From Pseudomonadota bacterium (lineage in GTDB: Bacteria; Desulfobacterota; Binatia; UBA9968), in assembly GCA_021324155.1 (NCBI GenBank), contig JAJPJQ010000021.1, positions 62,001 through 126,000 of the forward strand: a stretch of 64,000 nt of DNA, in the 5' to 3' direction. The translations under genes were made by a program, and so were the position numbers. Below the pieces are notes generated by a model. That model did no database searches, was not told where the DNA came from, and saw nothing but the letters and a program-made list of their open reading frames with translations. Of the stretch, positions 6,566 to 63,745 are shown one piece after another. Within the stretch, counting starts at the first letter, position 1. The number at the start of each line of letters is the position of its first letter.

Positions 6566-8377
6566 CTATTCGGTATCAGCCCTGGGGCGGCGCGCCATTT
6601 CTTCAATGATATTTTTGTAGCGTTCTTTGATGATCTGGCGCCGGAGTTTTAACGTCGGCGTAACCTCGGCGTTCGCCATCGAGAATCCGTCCGGCAAAAT
6701 GCGAAAATTCCTTACCGCCTCGTATGCGGCGACGCGCTTATTGACGGCGCGAATGCGCTCTTTGATCAATGCCGTGACGCGAGGATCTTCGGCGGCTTGC
6801 TCGGCTTCGCCGAGCTGAATACCTTGTTTTTCCGCCCATTCTGACAGACGTGCGCGGTCAAGCGTGACGAGCGCCATCAGGTGCCGCTCGCCGTCTCCCA
6901 GCACCATCGCTTCCTCGATGAGCGGGTCGGCCTTGATCAGGCCTTCGATCATCTGCGGAGCGACCTTTTTGCCGCCCGACGTGACGATCAGATCTTTCTT
7001 GCGGTCTGTAATGGTCAGGAAGCCGTCGGGGTCGATTGCGCCGATGTCGCCACTGTGGAGCCAGCCGTCGGCATCGACGGTCTCGCGCGTGGCCTCTGCG
7101 TCGCGAAAGTACCCTTTCATAATGTTTGCGCCGCGCATCAGAATCTCGCCGTCGGCTGCCGTGCGGCACTCGACGCCCGGAAGCGGAGGGCCGACCGTGC
7201 CGAATTTGTAGTGCCACGGGCGATTCACGTGCGAGACGGTCGACGATTCCGTTAGACCGTATCCTTGCAAAACCAGAATGCCGACAGAATGAAAAAACCG
7301 TGCGACCTCCTCGGCGAGCGGAGCGCCGCCAGAGACTGCGAAACGAAGCCGGCCGCCGAACGCTTCGTGGATGCGCGCGAACACCAGCCGCGTCGCGAGG
7401 CGATGTGCGAGGCAGAGCGACGCCGGCAGCGGCTTTCCCGCGCTTTGATAACGGCTCCAGCGCTGGCCGACCGCCACGGCCCAGCGGAAAATCGCGCGGC
7501 GCAGAGTGCCGGCAGACTCGGCCCTGGAGCGAATGCGTTCGTAGGCGTTCTCGTAAATCCGCGGCACCGAAATAAGAATCGTCGGTTTGAGCTCAGGTAA
7601 ATCTTTGGCGATCGTCTCGAGCGAGCGCGCGACGCCGCAGGTAAGCCCCTGCGCGACGACAAAAAAATGCTCGACCCGCCCGAGCGAATGCGCCAGCGGC
7701 AAGAACAGCATGTCGGAATCGTTCTCGTCGCAGCCGATGGCCGCCGCTGCGGCTTCGACCATGAAAAGATAATGCCGGTGGGTCGTCAGCACGCCCTTGG
7801 GCTCGCCGGTCGTTCCCGAAGTGTAGATGATCGTGAGATCGTCGTCGGGATCGAGCGCCGCGGCGGTTTTCTCGAAATCCTTCGAGCCCGAGCTTTGCTC
7901 CAGTCCGGCTCGCTCGAGACCCGCCAGGTTGATAATCGGCGGCGCATGCGACGATGCGTCCGCGTCAGCCTCACCGTCGAGCGTCACGACGAGCCTGACG
8001 CACGAAAACGACTCGCCGAGTCGCTTTATCTTATCGGCCGAGTCGACGAAGAGAACGGTGGACCCGGAATGCGCTAGGATGTTTCCCGCCTGCGCCGGCG
8101 TGCTCGACGCGTAGACCGGAACCGTCAATGCGCCGAGACAGATGTTCGCCCAATCCACGAGACACCACTCGACGCGATTCGGAAAAAAGAGCGCGACACG
8201 ATCGCCCTTGCCGACGCCGCGTGCCGCGAGACCGAGCGCGAGCGCCCGCACACGCGCGCGCGCCTCGCGCCAGCTCATCGTTTGCCATTGTCCGCGTGAA
8301 TAATATCGGTAGAGCGGCCGATCGCCGTAACGCTCGGCCTGCGCGAGGAACATTTCGGCGATGCTTTTGTGCTTCAC
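6566..8377 (-). CDS. Long-chain acyl-CoA synthetase (AMP-forming, FadD15-like)
   Basis: Activates a fatty or related carboxylic acid to acyl-CoA through an acyl-adenylate. The 603-residue length fits the long-chain group. The phosphate-binding loop IIYTSGTTGEPKG lies at residues 183-195, and later come GYGLTESS (A5), HSGDIGAIDPDGF (A7) and DRKKDLIVTSGGKKV (A8). The C-terminal domain carries PTLKLRRQII, with the conserved catalytic Lys region typical of bacterial homologues. It is divergent from coaE, 80 bases apart, and upstream of the exported methyltransferase. Chain-length preference cannot be read from sequence. Confidence 0.92.
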   Translation of the reverse strand: MKHKSIAEMFLAQAERYGDRPLYRYYSRGQWQTMSWREARARVRALALGLAARGVGKGDRVALFFPNRVEWCLVDWANICLGALTVPVYASSTPAQAGNILAHSGSTVLFVDSADKIKRLGESFSCVRLVVTLDGEADADASSHAPPIINLAGLERAGLEQSSGSKDFEKTAAALDPDDDLTIIYTSGTTGEPKGVLTTHRHYLFMVEAAAAAIGCDENDSDMLFLPLAHSLGRVEHFFVVAQGLTCGVARSLETIAKDLPELKPTILISVPRIYENAYERIRSRAESAGTLRRAIFRWAVAVGQRWSRYQSAGKPLPASLCLAHRLATRLVFARIHEAFGGRLRFAVSGGAPLAEEVARFFHSVGILVLQGYGLTESSTVSHVNRPWHYKFGTVGPPLPGVECRTAADGEILMRGANIMKGYFRDAEATRETVDADGWLHSGDIGAIDPDGFLTITDRKKDLIVTSGGKKVAPQMIEGLIKADPLIEEAMVLGDGERHLMALVTLDRARLSEWAEKQGIQLGEAEQAAEDPRVTALIKERIRAVNKRVAAYEAVRNFRILPDGFSMANAEVTPTLKLRRQIIKERYKNIIEEMARRPRADTE

Positions 8378-9726: not shown

Positions 9727-9850
9727 AGCGGAGTCAACGAACAAGCATAACGAGGCGCAAGCCCCCGAAGCGACCGAGGCGTACTCTTTTGTACGCCGCA
9801 GGACGCGACGGGGCGATGAACGAAGTTGGGCGAAGTTCATTGGCTCCGCT
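9727..9850. repeat. 124-bp imperfect inverted repeat (MITE/REP-like hairpin) between efp and gdhA
   Basis: The left arm 9727-9784 opens with AGCGGAGTCAACGAAC and ends GGCGTAC. After a 6-base TCTTTT loop the right arm 9791-9850 opens GTACGCC and ends with the complement of the first arm (GTTCATTGGCTCCGCT). The tips and the inner 7 bp pair perfectly and the middle pairs in patches, giving one long cruciform or RNA hairpin. It abuts the gdhA stop codon, overlapping it by one base. I see no open frame and no obvious target-site duplication. It could be a non-autonomous mobile element or an mRNA 3' end structure. Confidence 0.7.
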
Positions 9851-11118
9851 CAAGCGTAGAGGCCCCGCCACAGCATCGCGCGGGACACCCGCTCTACGCC
9901 GATCATCAGCGCCGCCAATCGCATATCGACCTTTTCCGTCCGGCTCATGTCGAGGACTTCGTAGAACGATTTGGTCAGGATCGCGCGCAACTTTTTATTG
10001 ATCTCGTCCTCGGTCCAGAAAAAGTTCTGCAGATCCTGTACCCATTCGAAGTACGAGACGATGACGCCGCCGGCGTTCGCGAGCACGTCGGGAATTACGA
10101 AGATGCCCTTCTCCCTCAGGACGGCGTCGGCGTCCAGCGTCGTCGGACCGTTTGCGCCTTCGGCCAGAAGACGGCATTTAAGCTTCGGCGCGTTCTGCGC
10201 CGTGATCTGCATGCCGAGCGCGGCGGGCACGAGAATGTCGCACTGTATCTCCAGCAGCTCGGCGTTAGTGATGCGCTCGCCGTGCGGACAGCCCTCGAGC
10301 GTGAAACTTTTCGAAGTCTTCGTGACGTATTCGATGACGCTCTGGATCGGCAGACCTTTGGGATCGTAGCGGCCGCCGGTCTTGTCTGAGATCGCGACGA
10401 TCTTCACGCCCACATCCGCCAGCTCCTTCGCCGCGACCGAGCCGACGTTGCCGAATCCCTGAACGGCAGCCGTCGCTCCGACCAGATCTATATTCAAGTG
10501 TTTCGCCGCCTCGCCGATCGTGTAGACGACGCCGCGCCCGGTCGCTTCGCGTCGTCCGACCGTGCCGCCGATTGCGACCGGCTTGCCGGTGACGACGCCG
10601 GGCACGGCATGACCCTTGTGTTGGCTGTAGGTATCCATGACCCACGCCATGACTTGCTCGTCGGTGCCCATATCCGGCGCGGGTACGTCGACCTCCGGAC
10701 CGATGATGTTGAGAATCTCGGCGGTGTAGCGCCGCGTTAGGCCCTGCACCTCCGCGCGCGACAGCTCGGCCGGATCGCACGACACACCGCCCTTGGCGCC
10801 GCCGAGCGGCAAGCCGGCGAGCGCGCATTTCCACGTCATCCACATCGCGAGCGCGGAGACTTCGCCGAGATTCACGTCGGGATGGTAGCGAATGCCGCCC
10901 TTGAACGGCCCGAGCGTATCGTTGTGCTGCACGCGGTAGCCGGTGAAGACCTGCACCCTGCGATCATCGCGCATGACCGGGACGCTCACGATCAGCGCGC
11001 GGTCCGGCCGCCGGAGACGCTCGGCCACGTTTTTATCAAGGTTTAATTTGCCCGCGGCGATCTCGAACTGCTTGACCGCCATCTCGCTCGCCGGACTGCG
11101 CCACTCAACGGTTGCCAT
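9850..11118 (-). CDS. gdhA: Glu/Leu/Phe/Val-type glutamate dehydrogenase
   Basis: NAD(P)-linked oxidative deamination of glutamate to 2-oxoglutarate, or the reverse. The 422-residue length fits the hexameric GDH family. Substrate and catalytic residues are visible: K73 in PFKGGIRY, K97 in MTWKCAL and K109 in PLGGAKGG. The dinucleotide-binding domain follows GRREATGRGVVYTI with GFGNVGSVAAKEL. GGAGG lies 6 bases before the ATG at 11118. A long hairpin follows its stop and a heptad-repeat hairpin lies just upstream of its start. Coenzyme preference is not evident. Confidence 0.95.
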   Translation of the reverse strand: MATVEWRSPASEMAVKQFEIAAGKLNLDKNVAERLRRPDRALIVSVPVMRDDRRVQVFTGYRVQHNDTLGPFKGGIRYHPDVNLGEVSALAMWMTWKCALAGLPLGGAKGGVSCDPAELSRAEVQGLTRRYTAEILNIIGPEVDVPAPDMGTDEQVMAWVMDTYSQHKGHAVPGVVTGKPVAIGGTVGRREATGRGVVYTIGEAAKHLNIDLVGATAAVQGFGNVGSVAAKELADVGVKIVAISDKTGGRYDPKGLPIQSVIEYVTKTSKSFTLEGCPHGERITNAELLEIQCDILVPAALGMQITAQNAPKLKCRLLAEGANGPTTLDADAVLREKGIFVIPDVLANAGGVIVSYFEWVQDLQNFFWTEDEINKKLRAILTKSFYEVLDMSRTEKVDMRLAALMIGVERVSRAMLWRGLYA

Positions 11119-11130
11119 CGAAACCTCCGA

Positions 11131-11216
11131 GTTTCAGGTTGCAGGTTTAAAGTTTCAGGTTTCCATCAAAATGCTTTTAAGCGCCGACGGGAAACCTAAG
11201 ACTTGCAACTTGAAAC
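11131..11216. repeat. Heptad-repeat hairpin, locus 1 (GTTTCAG-type)
   Basis: The left arm 11131-11165 is five 7-bp units: GTTTCAG, GTTGCAG, GTTTAAA, GTTTCAG, GTTTCCA. The right arm 11190-11216 is the reverse complement of similar units (GTTTCAA, GTTGCAA, GTCTTAG, GTTTCC). The arms are about 25 bases apart and can fold into a hairpin. It fills most of the 108-base gap between the HIT gene and gdhA on the minus strand. Confidence 0.75.
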
Positions 11217-11226
11217 GCTTTTTATT

Positions 11227-11571
11227 TTATCCCGGCGGCCACGAGAAATGACGGCCGCCCAGGAGATGAAAATGGATGTGAAACACCGTCTGGCCGGCAT
11301 TGGCGCCGCAGTTGACCACGATACGGTACCCGCCCTTTGCGACGCCTTCCTTCTCGGCGAGGCGGTTCGCGACGCCATGGATCGCACCGATGAGCTCATA
11401 ATCTTCTTTCTGAACATCGGATAGCATCGCAACGTGCTTGACGGGCACGATCAGAATGTGAACGGGCGCCTGCGGCCGGACGTCGCGGAAGGCGACGATC
11501 CGATCGTCACGGTAGACGATGTCGCCCTTGATTTTTCCTTCGATGATTCCGCAGAAAAGACAATCGGCCAT
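11227..11571 (-). CDS. HIT-family nucleotide hydrolase/transferase (HinT-like)
   Basis: A 114-residue cytoplasmic protein of the histidine-triad superfamily, whose members hydrolyse nucleotide phosphoramidates or related adenylates. The triad is FHIHFHLL with H98, H100 and H102, and the substrate helix VRPQAPVHILIVP is present. An N-terminal C4-C7 pair is typical of zinc-binding HinT. The ATG at 11571 was chosen because AGGAG sits 7 bases before it and MADCLFCGII is the standard HinT start; the frame is open further upstream. It follows the tandem Rieske genes by 16 bases. Confidence 0.92.
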   Translation of the reverse strand: MADCLFCGIIEGKIKGDIVYRDDRIVAFRDVRPQAPVHILIVPVKHVAMLSDVQKEDYELIGAIHGVANRLAEKEGVAKGGYRIVVNCGANAGQTVFHIHFHLLGGRHFSWPPG

Positions 11572-11966: not shown

Positions 11967-12449
11967 CTATAAGTCCGCCACTTCGAGCAGATCTCCCTCC
12001 GGGCAGCCGACGAGCACGTCATCGCCATCCACACGCACGGGAAGCGCGTAGAGCGACTGCCCCTTGCACGGCCCATCGACGCAGAGGCCGCTTTCGGGGT
12101 CATACAATGCGCCGTGCGTCATACAGATGAGGTGCCGTCCGTCTTCGGTGAAAAACTGGTAGCGCACGAAATCGAGCGGCGTCGTCATATGGCGGCAGCG
12201 GTTCACGTAAGCGCGAAAGGCGCCTTGATGATTGATCAAGAACGCGTCGATCCGATACTTCTGACAAATAAGATCGAATTTTTTTACCGATCCCGGTCTG
12301 ATTTCCGCCACGCGGGCGACGACGCGCGCGCCCGCGCGGCTCTCTTGCATCATCCTTTTTTTATCTTGCGCGAAACGATAACGGCGAACGGCGAAAGCGG
12401 CGAGATAAAGGGCGAGAAAGATGAGCGAGAGATAAATCGTCGCGAGCAT
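11967..12449 (-). CDS. Membrane-anchored Rieske [2Fe-2S] protein, upstream copy of a tandem pair
   Basis: A 160-residue protein with one N-terminal membrane helix (about residues 3-21) followed by a charged stretch and a Rieske domain with ligands C85-R-H87 and C109-M-T-H112. An extra Cys pair (C123, C128) follows, as in the downstream paralogue. It resembles small Rieske proteins that feed electrons to oxygenases or membrane oxidases rather than a cytochrome bc1 subunit, which would be longer. It is transcribed with the second Rieske gene and the HIT gene. A heptad-repeat hairpin lies immediately upstream. Confidence 0.83.
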   Translation of the reverse strand: MLATIYLSLIFLALYLAAFAVRRYRFAQDKKRMMQESRAGARVVARVAEIRPGSVKKFDLICQKYRIDAFLINHQGAFRAYVNRCRHMTTPLDFVRYQFFTEDGRHLICMTHGALYDPESGLCVDGPCKGQSLYALPVRVDGDDVLVGCPEGDLLEVADL

Positions 12450-12460
12450 GATGAAAACTC

Positions 12461-12572
12461 AGAACGTAGAATTTAGAACATAGAATCTAGAAGCGAAATT
12501 CAGAAGAACCTCACGGATGCTTCCCGCCCTTTTTACTTCTATATTCTAACTTCTAAATTCTATTCTACTTCT
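12461..12572. repeat. Heptad-repeat hairpin, locus 2 (AGAATNT-type)
   Basis: The left arm from 12461 is AGAACGT, AGAATTT, AGAACAT, AGAATCT, AGAAGCG. The right arm from about 12535 is the reverse complement type TTCTATA, TTCTAAC, TTCTAAA, TTCTATT. The block is AT-rich within GC-rich surroundings. The right arm runs over the stop codon of the next gene (TAG at 12565-12567), so the repeat contributes coding bases at that C-terminus. Confidence 0.78.
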
Positions 12573-12888
12573 TCTCCTTCTCGATCGACTGGCGAATGTC
12601 TTTCACGTTCTCGGCGCTCTGTTTGCCTTTAAGGCCCATCACTTGCATCAGCTCGCTCGTCATTTCCGCGGTTACCTGATCCCGCACGCTGCCCTTCCCT
12701 TCCGGATCGGCCTTCAGGAAGAGGATAATTTTTTCCTTCGGAACGCCTGTCGCCGCGAGGCCGTCGAGAAACTCTCCGTAGCCTACGTTTCCCCGGAGCT
12801 CGTCGACTTTCGCGAGCAGCTTTTTACAGTCGCCGCAGACCTTCGCGAACAAGCCGCTGCGCACGCCGCAGTAAACGCACAGCGCCAT
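12565..12888 (-). CDS. Hypothetical protein with N-terminal double CxxC (zinc-ribbon-like)
   Basis: I do not recognise this 107-residue protein. It begins MALCVYCGVRSGLFAKVCGDC, giving two CxxC pairs (C4/C7, C18/C21) 10 residues apart, a likely metal knuckle. The rest is charged and probably helical, ending in a Lys/Glu-rich tail. It starts 6 bases downstream of the phosphatase gene on the same strand, so coexpression is likely. No signal peptide or membrane segment is present. A role in nucleic acid or protein contact is only a guess from the knuckle. Confidence 0.7.
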   Translation of the reverse strand: MALCVYCGVRSGLFAKVCGDCKKLLAKVDELRGNVGYGEFLDGLAATGVPKEKIILFLKADPEGKGSVRDQVTAEMTSELMQVMGLKGKQSAENVKDIRQSIEKEKK

Positions 12889-13701: not shown

Positions 13702-14496
13702 TCAGGCGCTGCGTTCGGCCGCGCGTGCGTGCGGCACGACCCGGATAATACGCGGCACGAGCGGCAGCGCGGCGCGCGTCGAGCCGGCGACCAAGCGCAG
13801 GACTCGTTCGCGCCGGCTATTCCAGTGAAGGCCGTATGCGCGCCGGAGCTTCGGCGGCAGCAGCCCCGCGGTGATCAACACGTTCACCGGCGCGACGCTT
13901 TTTAAAAACCACGGGCGCGGGTAAAGAATCGCGCGGGCGAGGGAGCGCGCCGGTGCGCCGACGGCGATGCTGTCGGATTCGATGGCGGCATTCATGTATC
14001 GGTCGAAATCTTCGAGTGTGGCCGGCAGCGTCGCTTGCGGCACGCCTATCAACGCACCGAGCTTCTTCGAATCCTCGTAATAGCGGCGGCGCAGCTCGCG
14101 CGACAGCGGTCGCACGAAGCGATCGTAAGTAACCAACGCGGAATCGACCAGCGTCCCGTGCACCCAGAGCAGCAGCTCCGGATCGATCGCGCTGTAGGCT
14201 GCCCCGTTCGCGAGCTGCCCCTGCACGCGCTCGTGCACGCGGCCGAGGCGATCGAGCGACGCCTGCGCCCTCGGCAGATCGTCGAACACGATCGACCACA
14301 TCGTCTCCATCGTCTGCTTGAGGCGCCCGAGCGGATCGGTCACAAAGCGGCTGTGCTCCCCGACGCCGGCGGCGATTTTGGGATGCGCGATCTGCATAAG
14401 CAGCGCCCGCCCGCCGCCGAGGAGCAGCGCCATCTCGCGGTCGACGCGCCAGATTGCGCTGCCGGGCGAGAAAAATCGTTCGGTCATTTTACTCAT
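13702..14496 (-). CDS. MpaB/latex-clearing-type oxygenase family protein (DUF2236)
   Basis: A 264-residue helical protein of the DUF2236 family, which includes heme b oxygenases such as rubber oxygenase Lcp and fungal MpaB. Family features include FSPGSAIWRVDREMALLLGGGRALLMQ at the N-terminus (two pieces), HPKIAAGVGEHS, and LLWVHGTLVDS, whose His residues are heme-ligand candidates. I start at ATG 14496 with GGAAG about 8 bases before it; this overlaps the nicotinamidase-like stop by 8 bases, implying coupled translation. The substrate is unknown. Confidence 0.83.
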   Translation of the reverse strand: MSKMTERFFSPGSAIWRVDREMALLLGGGRALLMQIAHPKIAAGVGEHSRFVTDPLGRLKQTMETMWSIVFDDLPRAQASLDRLGRVHERVQGQLANGAAYSAIDPELLLWVHGTLVDSALVTYDRFVRPLSRELRRRYYEDSKKLGALIGVPQATLPATLEDFDRYMNAAIESDSIAVGAPARSLARAILYPRPWFLKSVAPVNVLITAGLLPPKLRRAYGLHWNSRRERVLRLVAGSTRAALPLVPRIIRVVPHARAAERSA

Positions 14497-15085
14497 GAAT
14501 GAGGACTTCCGGTCCGCCGGCTTTTTTTGCGCCCCGCGCCAACATCTCACGCGCGGCGCGCGCCGAGTCGCCCGGCGCGACGTCGACGCCGCGCGAGGCG
14601 TCTTCCAGCCAGACGACTTTGAACCCGTGCTTCAGACCGTCGAGTACCGTGTGCTTGACGCAATAATCCGTCGCGAGGCCCCCGACGAAGATCCGCTCAA
14701 CGCCCGAGCGTCTGAGCAGCTCGGCGAGCGCCATACCGCGCTCGTCGCGTCCGTCGAAGCCGGAATAACCGTCTTCGTCGGGCAAGGCGCCAGTGGTGAT
14801 AATGGAAGCGGTACGCGGCAGGCGCAAATCGGACCGCAGCTCCGCGCCTTTGGTCCCTTGGATGCAGTGCGGCGGCCACTGTCCGCCATAAGCCTTGAAA
14901 TGAATCGTTTTCTTCGGATGCCAATCGCGCGTCGCGAAAATCGGCTTTCGCGCTTTCTCGAATTTCTCGATGTAGGCATTTAATCGCGGGACAACTTCGT
15001 CGCCGCCAGCCACCGCGAGCGCTCCGCCGGGGCAGAAATCGTTCTGCACGTCGACGATTACGAGCGCATCCTTGCCTTTCATCAT
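14489..15085 (-). CDS. Nicotinamidase-like isochorismatase-fold protein with altered catalytic Lys
   Basis: Resembles PncA, which deamidates nicotinamide for NAD salvage. The 198-residue protein has D12 in VDVQNDFCPGG, the metal site D54-W-H56, WPPHCIQGTKGAE and the nucleophile C142 in GLATDYCVKHT. The conserved catalytic Lys of the D-K-C triad, expected before G in the segment leading to YSGF, is Thr: the residues read IITTGALPDEDGYSGF (T98). Metal and Cys sites are otherwise textbook. It may have altered activity, or another residue may substitute. First gene of the operon with the DUF2236 and phosphatase genes. Confidence 0.85.
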   Translation of the reverse strand: MMKGKDALVIVDVQNDFCPGGALAVAGGDEVVPRLNAYIEKFEKARKPIFATRDWHPKKTIHFKAYGGQWPPHCIQGTKGAELRSDLRLPRTASIITTGALPDEDGYSGFDGRDERGMALAELLRRSGVERIFVGGLATDYCVKHTVLDGLKHGFKVVWLEDASRGVDVAPGDSARAAREMLARGAKKAGGPEVLIHE

Positions 15086-15133
15086 TTCAGATTATATGGA
15101 AGATGGCGTACTTGCAAGAAAAGCAAGGAAAAT

Positions 15134-15240
15134 CAGAATATAGAAGTTAGAAGGCTCGAACATAGAGCCTGGAAGAGATGTTCGTATTCCGACCGTTCAT
15201 GCTGATTTCTGCATTCTGAATTCTAAATCATCTTCTATTG
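15134..15240. repeat. Heptad-repeat hairpin, locus 3 (AGAANNT-type)
   Basis: The left arm 15134-15178 reads AGAATAT, AGAAGTT, AGAAGGC, then degenerate units. The right arm 15206-15240 reads TTCTGCA, TTCTGAA, TTCTAAA and degenerates. It lies between the divergent nicotinamidase-like and HAD genes, ending 2 bases before the HAD ATG, so it occupies their promoter and leader region. Confidence 0.7.
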
Positions 15241-15242
15241 CT

Positions 15243-15947
15243 ATGATCAAAACCGTATTTTTCGACGCTGCGGGCACGCTCATGAGACCCGTGCGGCCGG
15301 TCGGCGAAAGCTATGCGCTCGTCGCCGCGAGCTATGGCATGAACGTCGCTCCCGAGGAAGTGTCGGCGCGCTTCCGCGCGTGCTTCGGCAACGCGCCGCC
15401 GCTCGCGTTTCCCGGAGCGCAAAACAATGGGATTCAGGAGCTGGAGCGCGACTGGTGGAAAACGCTGGTCACCCGCGTGTTCGAGCCGTACGGCCGCTTC
15501 GAGCGCTTCGACGAATATTTTACAGATTTGTTCGCTTACTTCTCGCGCGCGGACTCGTGGCGACTCTTTCCCGAGACCGAAGAGACGCTGGCGTCGCTCA
15601 AGCGCCGCGGTTTGAAGCTCGCCGTGATCTCGAATTTCGACTCGCGGCTCTTCGCCATTCTCGAAGGACTCGGCGTCGCGCCGGAATTCGAATCGATCCT
15701 GATCTCGAGCCACGCCGGCTACGCGAAGCCCGCGCCGGAGATTTTTCGCCAAGCTCTGGAACGCCATCAGACCGGCCCCGACGAGGCGCTTCATGTGGGC
15801 GACAGCGTCGAGAAGGACGCCGAGGGCGCGCGCGGCGCGGGCATTCAGGGCGTCCTGCTCGACCGCCAAGCCAAGCTCGTAGGCGCCGGGTTTCCGAAGA
15901 TCAAAAATCTCTCCGGGCTGCTGCCGCTGGTCGAAAACGGGAGGTAA
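15243..15947 (+). CDS. HAD-superfamily hydrolase (HDHD3-like) with DxA in motif I
   Basis: A 234-residue HAD-IA protein. Motif I is FFDAAGTL: nucleophile D8 is present, but the second Asp (normally DxD, acid/base) is A10. Motif II is VISNFDSR, motif III lies around YAKPAPEIF, and motif IV is HVGDSVEKDAEGARGAG. The DAAGTL variant is known in the HDHD3-like branch, where phosphatase activity is uncertain. The ATG follows the heptad-repeat hairpin and lacks a strong ribosome site. It is followed 1 base later by the next gene, whose GGGAGG lies inside the HAD C-terminus, so they form an operon. Confidence 0.85.
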   Translation: MIKTVFFDAAGTLMRPVRPVGESYALVAASYGMNVAPEEVSARFRACFGNAPPLAFPGAQNNGIQELERDWWKTLVTRVFEPYGRFERFDEYFTDLFAYFSRADSWRLFPETEETLASLKRRGLKLAVISNFDSRLFAILEGLGVAPEFESILISSHAGYAKPAPEIFRQALERHQTGPDEALHVGDSVEKDAEGARGAGIQGVLLDRQAKLVGAGFPKIKNLSGLLPLVENGR

Positions 15948-24643: not shown

Positions 24644-24698
24644 AAGCTCCTCCTTCATGGGTTAAAGGTTAAAAGGTGAATAGATAACCGCGCAATAC

Positions 24699-24811: not shown

Positions 24812-26305
24812 TTAACTCTGCCCTTCCAACATCTTCTTCCATTTCTGGCGGATTTTTTCCTTGAGCTCGGGGCTCGACTCCGCGACCGGCGGAAAATCCT
24901 TGATCCACTCGAACGGCCGGCACGCGTCGATGACCGCGCGCGAGTTGAAGCCCTTCTTCCCGGGCTGGATGCGCGGATCGAGCGGCCCGCTCCAGCAGCG
25001 ACGGAGAATCTCAATCGACTCCGCCGGATCGGAGCGCGACGCGAGCGCCCAGAGGACGTCGAAAGTGCTGGTCGGATCGATGTCTTCATCCACGACAATG
25101 ACGTAGCGGCCGAGATAGGCGCCCGCGTGGACCTGCGACGCAGCGAGCATCGCCTGGCGCGCGTGGCCGGGATAGCGCTGTTTGATCGAGATGATGTTGA
25201 GGAGCCTGCCGCCGCCGGCTTCGTGGCACCATACGCCGCGCACGTCCGGAACGCCGGCCTTTTCCACCTGCTCCCAGATGAGAGCGGATTTCACCATGCA
25301 CTTCGCGATGGAATAATCTGACGGCGGACGACCCGGGCGAGCGCAGCAGAGGATCGGATCGTTGCGATGGTAGACGCGCTCGACGCGAATGACCGGCTCC
25401 GGACGCGACGAGCTGGCGTAGTAGCCGGTCCATTCGCCGAACGGGCCTTCGGTCTTGACGTCGTCGGGCTTCATGAAGCCCTCGATGACGATCTCCGCGT
25501 GCGCCGGGAACGGCAGGCCGGTGGCCTCGCCCTCGCAGACTTCGATCGGCGCGCCCTTGAGTCCGCCGGCGTAGTCGAATTCCGACACGCCGTAGTCGAT
25601 CTCGTTTCCGGAGACCATAAAGAGCACCGGGTCCTGGCCGACACAGATGATGACCGGGCACGGCTTGCCCTTCTCGAACCACTTGCGGCGCTGGATCGAG
25701 CCGTGTTTACCGGGCGAAATGTACAGCCCCATGCTGTTCTTGTCGTGCACCATGCCGCGGTAGGCGCCGAAATTGACCCAGCCTTCGTCCGGGTCCTTCG
25801 TGATCACAAGGCACGCGGTGCCGATAAAGCGGCCGCCGTCGAGCTCGTGCATGAACGGCACCGGAAATTTCAAAAGATCGATGTCGTTCCCCTTTTGGAT
25901 GTTTTCGAGGATCGGGCCTTTCTTGACGACCTTGTGCGTGATCGGCTTGTGCTCGTTGAGCTTGTGGCGAAACGCCTTGACGAGCTCCAGGTTTGTCAGG
26001 TCCATGGGAAGGCCGAGGTTCAGCGCCATGCGCTTGAACGAGGCGTTCTGGGCGAACAGCGTGCGATAACCCTTCGGATAGCCCTTAATGTTGTCGAAGA
26101 GCACCGCCGGAACGGGACCTTTGCTCTCGGTCGCGAGCAGCTCGGCGAGCGTGCCCATCTCCAGGTTCCAATCGGCGCCGTCCACTTTCCGGAGCTCGCC
26201 GATGCTGTCGACGATCTCAAGCCATTCGCGCAGATCGGTGTAGCTCGGCGTGCGGCCGGCTTTCATCTGGTCTTCGGCCATTTTTCTCGCTTCTAGAGCG
26301 GTCAT
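24812..26305 (-). CDS. UbiD-family prenylated-FMN decarboxylase
   Basis: Reversible decarboxylation of aromatic or alpha,beta-unsaturated acids using prenylated FMN. The 497-residue length and motifs fit the family: DLREWLEIVDSIGELRKVDG at the N-terminus, RYRGMVHDKN-like AYRGMVHDKN, EGPFGEWTGYYASSS with the catalytic Glu region, and the C-terminal GYARQAM-like GHARQAMLAASQ. AGGAG stands 6 bases before the ATG. No UbiX (prFMN synthase) gene is in the window. The gene is monocistronic, bounded by a terminator downstream and a heptad-repeat hairpin upstream. Substrate is unassigned. Confidence 0.92.
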   Translation of the reverse strand: MTALEARKMAEDQMKAGRTPSYTDLREWLEIVDSIGELRKVDGADWNLEMGTLAELLATESKGPVPAVLFDNIKGYPKGYRTLFAQNASFKRMALNLGLPMDLTNLELVKAFRHKLNEHKPITHKVVKKGPILENIQKGNDIDLLKFPVPFMHELDGGRFIGTACLVITKDPDEGWVNFGAYRGMVHDKNSMGLYISPGKHGSIQRRKWFEKGKPCPVIICVGQDPVLFMVSGNEIDYGVSEFDYAGGLKGAPIEVCEGEATGLPFPAHAEIVIEGFMKPDDVKTEGPFGEWTGYYASSSRPEPVIRVERVYHRNDPILCCARPGRPPSDYSIAKCMVKSALIWEQVEKAGVPDVRGVWCHEAGGGRLLNIISIKQRYPGHARQAMLAASQVHAGAYLGRYVIVVDEDIDPTSTFDVLWALASRSDPAESIEILRRCWSGPLDPRIQPGKKGFNSRAVIDACRPFEWIKDFPPVAESSPELKEKIRQKWKKMLEGQS

Positions 26306-26328: not shown

Positions 26329-26436
26329 TGAATTCGGAACATAGAATATAGGAGATAAAATTCAGAATCCAGAAGAAAGAACGGGATTCCGACCCCCTTC
26401 GGTCTCCTGGATTCTGAATTCTATATTTTATTTCTT
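26329..26436. repeat. Heptad-repeat hairpin, locus 4 (AGAATNN-type)
   Basis: The left arm 26329-26380 includes AGAATAT, AGGAGAT, AGAATCC, AGAAGAA, AGAACGG. The right arm 26406-26436 includes TTCTGAA, TTCTATA, TTTTATT. It fills the gap between the ABC ATPase stop and the ubiD ribosome site on the minus strand, so it lies in the ubiD promoter zone and just after the ATPase gene. Confidence 0.7.
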
Positions 26437-26443
26437 GCTTATT

Positions 26444-27592
26444 TTACGCTCCTAAAGCCGATTCGTCCATCCCTTCGGTGTCTTCCGCCGGGAGCCCGTT
26501 GCAGCTCTGCGGGTCGAGATGAAGGTAAACCTTGTCGCCGGGGTTCATGGTAAGGAATGGATGTGTGTGGACGCGCAGCAGCGTATCGCCGACGGCGATC
26601 TGGCAATGATATGCGTCGCCCATGAAAATCGCCTCCTTGACCGTCCCTTCGAGAACGTTTTCGCTAACCTGAGGCTTTTGTTTCATGACTTCGATGTGCT
26701 CGGGGCGGATCGACAGCACGGCGGCGCCGCCCGCATGCAGGCCGGCGGCCGGAATAAACGCGAAAACCCCCTTGGAAGTCTCCAGCCGTCCAGGCTTGGA
26801 GTCTCCGCCGAGCTCGACGACTTTGCCGGGAATCAAATTGGTGAGGCCGAGGAACGTCGCGGTGAACCTTCGTTTCGGACGAGAATAGAGCTGATGGGGA
26901 TTGCCGACCTCGATCAATTTGCCCGCGTGCATAACGGCGATCTGATCGGAGATGGCGAGCGCCTCGCCCTGATCGTGCGTGACGTAGATCGTCGTGATGT
27001 TGACGCGCCGCTGCAGCGCTTTGATCTCGAAGCGCATTTGCTCACGGAGCTTGGCGTCGAGATTCGAAAGCGGCTCGTCGAGCAGCATGACCTTCGGCTC
27101 GTTGACGAGCGCGCGCGCGAACGCGACCCGCTGTTGCTGCCCGCCGGAGAGCTTCGGCGCCGGCCGGTCTTCGAGCCCTTGGAGGCCGACGATCTTCAAG
27201 ACTTCGCCGACGCGCTTTTTGATATCGGCTTTATTGACATGCTGGATCGTGAGCGGATACGCGACATTCTCGAAAACTGTCATGTGCGGCCAAATGGCGT
27301 AGGACTGAAAGACCATGCCGATCGGCCTTCGGTTTGTCGGGACGTAGACGCGCTCGGCCGCGGAGAAAACCGTCTTGCCGCCGATGCTGATGCTGCCGAT
27401 GTCGGGACGCTCGAGGCCGGCGACGCAGCGCAGGGTCGTAGTCTTGCCGCAGCCGGAAGGGCCGAGAAACGTGTAGAGCGACCCCTCCGGGATGTCGAGT
27501 GAAACCCCCTTTAAAACGTGAACACGCTCGCGGTCCTCGCCGAAAAATTTTTCCAGGTTCTGGATCCGCACCATAAAATTCTTCTCTGCCAT
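26444..27592 (-). CDS. ABC transporter ATP-binding protein, iron/polyamine type (FbpC/PotA-like)
   Basis: Cytoplasmic ATPase of an importer, 382 residues. Walker A GPSGCGKTT at 44-52, signature LSGGQQQR, Walker B VMLLDEPLSNLD and switch His in VTHDQGEA are all present. A C-terminal TOBE domain (about 270-365) identifies the PotA/FbpC/MalK branch. It lies 87 bases downstream of the double-permease gene and is very likely its motor subunit. No matching binding protein is adjacent; the iron-type binding proteins near 38 kb and 58 kb could serve. Confidence 0.93.
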   Translation of the reverse strand: MAEKNFMVRIQNLEKFFGEDRERVHVLKGVSLDIPEGSLYTFLGPSGCGKTTTLRCVAGLERPDIGSISIGGKTVFSAAERVYVPTNRRPIGMVFQSYAIWPHMTVFENVAYPLTIQHVNKADIKKRVGEVLKIVGLQGLEDRPAPKLSGGQQQRVAFARALVNEPKVMLLDEPLSNLDAKLREQMRFEIKALQRRVNITTIYVTHDQGEALAISDQIAVMHAGKLIEVGNPHQLYSRPKRRFTATFLGLTNLIPGKVVELGGDSKPGRLETSKGVFAFIPAAGLHAGGAAVLSIRPEHIEVMKQKPQVSENVLEGTVKEAIFMGDAYHCQIAVGDTLLRVHTHPFLTMNPGDKVYLHLDPQSCNGLPAEDTEGMDESALGA

Positions 27593-63455: not shown

Positions 63456-63475
63456 TGCAGTGCTCCTTCCTAAGA

Positions 63476-63551
63476 AGGCGTGAGGCGAGAGGCGTAAGGC
63501 GCGAGCAGGAACGCATTCTCACTATCGCCTACGACTCCGCCAATCGCCTAA
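63476..63551. repeat. Heptad-repeat hairpin, locus 5 (GGCGTGA-type), between rpmI and rplT
   Basis: The left arm is GGCGTGA, GGCGAGA, GGCGTAA, GGCGCGA starting at 63478. The right arm (63526-63551) is built from reverse-complement units such as TCGCCTA and TCGCCTAAAG and overlaps the rpmI stop (TAG at 63548-63550). The heptamer is GC-rich, unlike loci 2-4, but the two-armed 7-bp architecture is the same. It sits within a ribosomal operon transcript. Confidence 0.75.
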
Positions 63552-63745
63552 AGATACGGTACTAATTTGCGAATGTTTTTCTGCTCGGCGTCTGAAACCA
63601 GCGCGCCCTGGCGCAGATTCCGCTTACGCTTCTTGCCCTTCGACGACAGCAGATGGCCCTTGAAGCCCTTGTTGCGCTTGATCTTCCCAGTGCCGGTGAC
63701 GCGGAATCTTTTCATCGCGCCGCGGCTGCTTTTGATCTTCGGCAT
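63548..63745 (-). CDS. rpmI: Ribosomal protein L35
   Basis: A 65-residue basic ribosomal protein; [22 protein letters not shown] and [23 protein letters not shown] are the classic L35 sequence. It follows infC by 16 bases and precedes rplT after a 92-base gap that contains a repeat hairpin, larger than the usual tight spacing. The stop codon lies in the right arm of that repeat. Confidence 0.97.

Follow-up and report, generated by a model that had tools for sequence, protein, structure and literature searches.

Facing arrays of 7-bp units at gene ends in a Binatia genome, in its relatives and in some phages

Intergenic DNA of a Binatia bacterium (assembly GCA_021324155.1; host genome G000 below) carries a family of hairpins built from tandem 7-bp units. 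They were met in a 64-kb window, by which we mean the whole stretch of DNA analyzed (contig JAJPJQ010000021.1, positions 62,001 to 126,000, contig 12 of a 4.80-Mb draft that is 98.1% complete). Both the 7-bp period and the build from two arms are seen again and again in the genome sample, and orientation is nearly constant for each unit class. The hairpins adjoin stop codons, mostly at tight co-directional junctions. Orthologous junctions in different genera carry hairpins of unrelated heptamers, or none. Related phages have filled and empty sites, and the arms of close relatives differ by whole 7-bp units. The reading we prefer, with a probability of about 0.5, is that non-coding hairpin elements of an insertion type occupy gene ends and are reshaped by 7-bp slippage; an element would be roughly 55-115 bp long, with two arrays of about 3-6 heptamers facing each other across a short loop.

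The window was scored for self-match at lag 7 and compared with five block-shuffled windows. Its seven best segments (12456-12492, 11131-11163, 63476-63501, 12537-12562, 26407-26443, 26337-26381 and 15202-15228; scores 14-12) mark five loci (Table 1), against a maximum of only 7-11 in the shuffled windows. A preliminary description of the window had credited these loci with a shared two-arm build of period 7, and this build is real: they are the top lag-7 sites and their arms pair. Pairing is weaker at the 15134 locus, which, with z = -0.1 on the minus strand, folds no better than shuffles on that strand. At 63476-63551, where the outer unit is overlapped by the L35 stop, the ungapped stem finder picked another stem (63502-63521/63568-63587), but when 63470-63560 is folded as RNA the heptad arms do pair. 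Genes are co-directional around four of the five loci. A further single arm that had been proposed at 24660-24680 is weak and unsupported; it lies outside the seven best sites and is unlisted by Tandem Repeats Finder at score 30.

Table 1. Heptamer hairpins of the window, with arms from an ungapped stem finder and RNA fold z-scores on each strand. The L35 gene was named by eye from its translation.
Hairpin	Position	Stem score	Paired arms	z (+)	z (-)	Location
GTTTCRR	11131..11216		11131-11156/11191-11216	-5.0	-5.4	between HIT-domain gene (11227-11571, -) and ELFV dehydrogenase gene (9850-11118, -)
AGAAT-type	12456..12572	22	12467-12498/12531-12562	-5.7	-4.2	between ORFs 12565-12888 (-) and 11967-12449 (-)
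AGAAT-type, weaker	15130..15240	11	15130-15150/15202-15222	-2.5	-0.1	between divergent starts of isochorismatase-domain gene (14489-15085, -) and HAD hydrolase gene (15243-15947, +)
AGAAT-type	26337..26443	22	26348-26385/26394-26431	-4.7	-6.2	between ABC-transporter ATPase gene (26444-27592, -) and UbiD gene (24812-26305, -)
AGGCGNN	63476..63551			-2.9	-3.0	between L35 gene (63548-63745, -) and L20 gene (63096-63455, -)

The genome sample consisted of the window and 39 stretches of the host genome (836,308 bp in all). It contains 59 lag-7 segments with a score of at least 12, against one in one block shuffle. Intergenic host DNA (472 pieces, 98,808 bp) has 61 lag-7 segments scoring at least 11, against 0-2 in ten dinucleotide shuffles; at lag 14 there are 31, and at the remaining lags in the range 5-15 there are 0-6. 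Intergenic period 7 is thus above chance in the host. The preliminary description had allowed that autocorrelation might be no higher than in shuffled intergenic DNA, or that no further two-armed copies might turn up; the counts go the other way, and the sample holds 36 two-armed hairpins. Its 66 segments scoring at least 11 merge into 52 loci. The stem score exceeds 13, the best of 66 random (not intergenic) places, in 42 of the 66, the two segments of one hairpin being counted twice. Fourteen lack a stem of at least 12 and are single arms.

The 36 two-armed host hairpins comprise GTTTC (13), AGAAT/G (8) and GATTTT (3) classes, two hairpins each of AGTGAG, GGGATT, TCAGC and TTTTGA, and four that are unclassed. 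Arm orientation is constant within a class in all 32 classed hairpins. Three relatives add 19 classed hairpins, of which 18 conform and one, a GTTCAA hairpin, is inside-out. Only constancy within a class tests orientation, because the class words were picked from left arms. Read towards the loop, the arms have more G than C in 32/36 host hairpins and 18/22 in the relatives. In 17 of 31 stems the two weakest phases of the unit are neighbors, where a third of stems would be expected. Of 263 cells compared between arms, 158 (0.60) have matching variable bases, whereas shuffled units give 0.536 (sd 0.022) and 5 of 1000 shuffles are as high. Host copies are alike only in part. Two loci (L023:9654 and L053:14527) have a 31-nt right arm in common with one mismatch, and their left arms and loops differ. 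TCCG is present in 17 of 38 loops, against 4.7 in single-base shuffles, and TCCG/CGGATT words recur in the loops of hairpins having different arm words.

Placement was read against 858 genes of the sample, called with a home-made codon-usage caller. The 38 loci with a stem of at least 12 lie between co-directional genes in 31 cases and between convergent genes in five; none is divergent, one is within a gene and one is at an edge. Background spacers of at least 80 nt are co-directional in 215 cases, divergent in 77 and convergent in 25. The divergent hairpin of the window, at 15134, is just under the stem cut of 12 and so outside this count. Such hairpins occupy 28 of the 166 co-directional spacers of 60-150 nt, against none of the 85 divergent spacers with 60 nt or more. 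Most host hairpins start no more than about 20 nt from a stop codon. In 32 co-directional cases the spacer left after subtracting the hairpin measures 15.5 nt at the median, and at most 39 nt in 28 of them. The adjoining stops are TAA in 19 cases, TGA in nine and TAG in five (288, 305 and 226, respectively, among all called genes).

This placement could be that of a conserved RNA device, in which post-stop hairpins would be kept to protect or process the message or as a regulator's binding site; the paired heptamer sites of Geobacter have been proposed to have such a role. The hairpins adjoin stop codons in operons, and good RNA folds form on both strands at four of the five window loci. To this extent an RNA structure kept at gene ends, as suggested earlier, fits the placement, any selection for the fold being hypothetical; we consider such a device unlikely. 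Rfam gave no match in the window at the gathering score. Stops in all frames are not in excess at hairpins (18/32 against 16.6 in shuffles), and Shine-Dalgarno motifs are not clearly changed at hairpin junctions (10/30 against 127/250, a comparison that depends on home-made start calls). When the 33 junctions are counted by eye, a run of five or more T, the mark of an intrinsic terminator, follows the hairpin at just six. The TCAGC element is also found inside a phage gene.

Three window junctions were followed into related genomes, with classes assigned by eye throughout and no tree behind the genus comparisons. At the L35-L20 junction, readable in 24 family members (G006 being unreadable), 12 have a two-armed hairpin, in five unit classes; three (G001, G009 and G023) are single-armed or doubtful and were not scored as two-armed, and nine have none. 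The classes are AGGCGNN (G000, G003, where it is weak, G022 and G005), TCAGCNN (G002, G018, G007 and G019), GAGTNNT (G015 and G010), TGCAAAN (G013) and CTGAGNN (G014), and more than one class occurs within genus g6 and likewise within g8. The junction of the HIT-domain and dehydrogenase genes has a two-armed hairpin in 11 of 22 genomes (G020, G023 and G024 have no close homologue, and G010 was read beside a run of N). Five classes are again seen: GTTTC in G000; GATTTT in G002, G003 and G010; GTTCAA in G005, G022 and G015; TGCAAA in G013 and G007; and GTCAAT in G018 and G019. Three words stand side by side in G013, and in G018 a GGGTTT hairpin is nested inside the GTCAAT hairpin. One nested hairpin of this kind (GTCAAT outside, GGGTTT inside) is seen at L318:14167-14300 and in L203 near 1209-1318, which are different places in two genera. 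At the ABC-UbiD junction, where seven of 27 listed loci were dropped with the wrong side of the gene displayed, five of the 20 readable loci have a hairpin, each of a separate class and that of G025 weak. In G003 (L056) a single heptad arm stands there beside another palindrome-like repeat (CCCTTCG...CTCAGG type) that fills the spacer. Hairpin-free orthologous junctions mostly have short spacers of about 20-60 nt.

These three comparisons indicate, therefore, that hairpins of one build stay at, or return to, the same places with a changed word. A junction may once have had several words side by side that were then lost differently. The return of two-armed hairpins to the same junction with different words would suit an RNA device; at least ten family members with no hairpin at the L35-L20 or HIT-dehydrogenase junction speak against it. 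Hairpin density also differs between genomes: segments scoring at least 12 number 7.1 per 100 kb sampled in G000, 9 in G003, 10 in G005 and 12.2 in G007, and 1 and 3 in the sparse genomes G004 and G016. In the sister family the values are 1 (G028) and 0 (G033), and in G050, of the same class, 0.

Slippage with hairpin template-switching might account for all this on its own. Chance palindromes in unconstrained junction DNA would grow locally through polymerase slippage with a preference for 7-nt steps, and would be born, changed and lost in place without a mobile element. Earlier work blamed polymerase footprint and slippage for the excess of heptamers (as cited in PMC4692102, taken from part of that paper). 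The slight excess of cross-arm matches in the host is consistent with such an origin, as are gaps of 7, 14 and 28 nt in the arms of related phages. Other observations make it rather unlikely: a few words, above all GTTTC and AGAAT/G, recur often and in constant orientation; the near-identical right arm described above is joined to parts that are unlike; and relatives of the most hairpin-loaded phage have none. In addition, a composite hairpin is common to G007 and G018 at non-orthologous places, with 83% identity over 112 bp.

The TCAGC class is also found across the phylum and in phages. Three TCAGC units facing three GCTGA units were found in 28 of 395 genomes across the phylum, belonging to 14 families; the reversed pattern was found in none of the 395. 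A strict GTTTC pattern matched three of the 395 and nothing in the host; it cannot map that class, because the class is common in the host but degenerate. One genome, G074, has 137 forward matches to a looser TCAGC pattern, overlapping matches included, and in most of eight aligned copies the hairpin lies inside a larger element with inverted ends. This repeat family (L533-L555, e.g., L544 and L550) has the inverted ends TTAGT.TTCATCCGGAAAC and its reverse complement, with the TCAGC hairpin in mid-element.

In a looser scan of viral contigs at least 120 stretches match, and the TCAGC word crowds some phage genomes. The tailed phage IMGVR_UViG_3300045936_000120 (L358, L367 and L368), a 34-kb contig with terminase, portal, head and tape-measure genes, has TCAGC hairpins at many gene junctions, with one in frame within a head-morphogenesis gene and one near the start of that gene. 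Its relatives L500 and L501 are without some of them. The hairpin near L358:5893 sits between TGA and ATG, where L500 has an overlapping TAGTG instead, and the hairpin at 6625 is missing from both relatives. At one junction L501 has an arm in common with L358:5714, with identical variable bases; at two others the phage and L500 have different variable bases. A more distant relative (L505/L513) has no segment scoring at least 11 in the parts fetched. After the portal gene in L511 and L512, a left arm and loop supply what reads as the N-terminal end of the following open frame, as if in coding use. Arm length varies between close relatives, in this case phages and not bacterial strains. A single 7-nt gap inside an arm is the sole difference between contigs L404 and L424 across 4,980 bp, and L404 and L417, which are 87% identical, differ there by 14 and 28 nt.

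Both halves of the earlier suggestion, a spreading or slippage-driven element, are thus supported, spreading by the filled and empty phage sites together with the composite copy at non-orthologous places, and slippage by the 7-, 14- and 28-nt gaps in arms. In the preferred reading, hairpins would enter or arise at gene ends through a copying or insertion event. Slippage that requires about five paired bases would then hold the core of the unit uniform, and the other bases would drift or be replaced. Persistence in operon junctions would reflect tolerance, since promoters are spared and folding of the RNA would leave the stop and the next start about 15 nt apart.

The variable bases of the phage hairpins bear on a different origin. 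Among 23 parsed hairpins, some of which share arms, the two variable bases change freely from copy to copy, and C is avoided at the first of them (0/79 in left arms and 1/94 in right arms, read in the same sense). They pair across the arms in 28 of 148 cases, below a null of 0.269 (sd 0.036; 20 of 2000 as low), and their make-up differs between the two arms. An enzyme with a fixed 7-nt step, telomerase-like or partly untemplated, might extend the two 3' ends at a break with heptamers in the same sense, and once joined these ends would give facing arrays with an unrelated middle. The product would have about five set and two loosely set bases per unit, mostly at gene ends, and would amount to telomere-like repeats written into chromosomes and phages in words that differ by lineage; we hold both process and product to be very improbable. 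End synthesis explains orientation and independent arms, but lacks an enzyme. Near-constant orientation, the G over C bias towards the loop, the occurrence of single arms, and phage arms that both avoid C at the first place and are not mirror copies are all in its favor. A bacterial reverse transcriptase, DRT10, can make tandem-repeat cDNA (PMC12632851, cited in part), although its unit length varies between systems. Against end synthesis stand the unlike make-up of the two phage arms, the weak mirroring in the host, and single arms that are remnants of full hairpins, L511 and L512 retaining an arm and loop.

Candidate enzymes and carriers were searched for. REP and REPIN elements, short extragenic hairpins in many copies, go with RAYT transposases; unlike them, the hairpins described here have no stem sequence conserved across copies. 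The Y1 transposase is present in all 25 family genomes (one copy in the host) and in 11 of 12 hairpin-bearing genomes elsewhere. It was rejected as driver: 60 Y1 loci (167,469 bp) hold 11 heptad arrays, or 6.6 per 100 kb, against 7.1 for the host at large. The RVT_1 profile, which can miss divergent reverse transcriptases, matched in 10 of 25 family genomes and not in the host; in all, 7 of 11 hairpin-rich family genomes are without a match, genera being labelled hairpin-rich from two junctions and density samples. Ku occurs in 10 of 25 family genomes, including the host, but is absent from the hairpin-dense G003, G005 and G007. The last two results also count against end synthesis. An autonomous element with arms flanking a gene was rejected as well: for 14 single-arm segments searched 6 kb to each side, the best partner score was 12, within the random range. 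A possible comparison is with MITEs, which have terminal inverted repeats, a target-site duplication and copies that are alike throughout: G074 copies lie in an element with inverted ends, and host copies resemble one another only in part.

Several points weigh against insertion followed by slippage. No target-site duplication was established, and none of Y1 transposase, RVT_1 and Ku tracks hairpin density. Most host copies are too diverged for a direct view of insertion. Many G074 copies may be hitchhikers, because their hairpins sit in a larger element with inverted ends. The unit differences among L404, L424 and L417, which are metagenome contigs, might be short-read assembly errors. Conservation by unit phase is graded in the host, from 0.51 to 0.97, which blurs the pattern of five plus two bases, and variable-base pairing is below chance in the phage and slightly above chance in the host. 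Other constraints next to stop codons, finally, may lie behind what is read as tolerance.

Heptamer repeats, inverted pairs included, are already known; the comparisons that follow are with part of each cited paper. Xanthomonas and Nostoc have GGGNATC / GGGGAYT repeats, whose 7-bp units have fixed and variable positions (GGGANTN); they are intergenic, near the upstream gene and rare between divergent genes, and close convergent pairs number 70 in Xcc and 75 in Xac (PMC4692102). The host has a related GGGATT class in 2 of its 36 hairpins. Unlike that single G-rich word, which was read as a G-quadruplex (PMC4692102), several words here share one architecture and change at orthologous junctions, and the GTTTC, AGAAT/G, TCAGC and GATTTT classes are without the G runs of a quadruplex-capable unit. 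In Geobacter metallireducens, MTYCTGA heptamers in tandem form sites that pair up on opposite strands, one such pair lying between proBA (PMC2700814). MTYCTGA fits the AGAAT/TTCTGA class (8 of 36 host hairpins) and not the remaining classes; unlike here, no mobility or slippage is shown for the paired sites in the part of that paper used (PMC2700814).

The TAACTGA repeats of Beggiatoaceae and cyanobacteria form intergenic arrays with 7-nt indels between close strains, and some relatives are without arrays (PMC4679880). They are direct repeats of one word, mostly just before start codons, with a single indirect repeat in the main genome, in contrast to the host hairpins, which are inverted, of several words and after stops; a range of heptamers is mentioned for Microcystis (PMC4679880). 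The likeness to cyanobacterial heptamer repeats drawn in the preliminary description is fair, but the inverted layout that it took to be distinct is not, given the pairs published for Xanthomonas and Geobacter metallireducens (PMC4692102, PMC2700814). DRT10 resembles the present case in making tandem-repeat DNA from a short template. It differs in that its product is cDNA not known, from the part of the report used, to enter genomes (PMC12632851), and the host has no RVT_1 match. We found no account, in the open-licence PMC literature searched and the parts of it cited here, of a two-armed architecture that is shared by several words, the word changing at orthologous junctions.

An excess of heptamer repeats in bacteria was reported by Mrazek (2007) without a settled cause (as cited in PMC4692102). 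A single lineage now offers one architecture spelled in several words at junctions that recur, together with related phages that have filled and empty sites and near-identical contigs that are one unit apart. The cause becomes testable: at one and the same site, the outcomes expected from insertion, from slippage and from end synthesis are not alike. The hairpins also exemplify DNA that takes up the space from stop to start in operons, and the sequence gives no sign of harm. As to the host itself, the best named match of the window's L20 protein among the matches listed, which may leave out records of the host's own genome, is at 86% to a metagenome-assembled genome labelled Deltaproteobacteria bacterium RIFCSPLOWO2_12_FULL_60_19.
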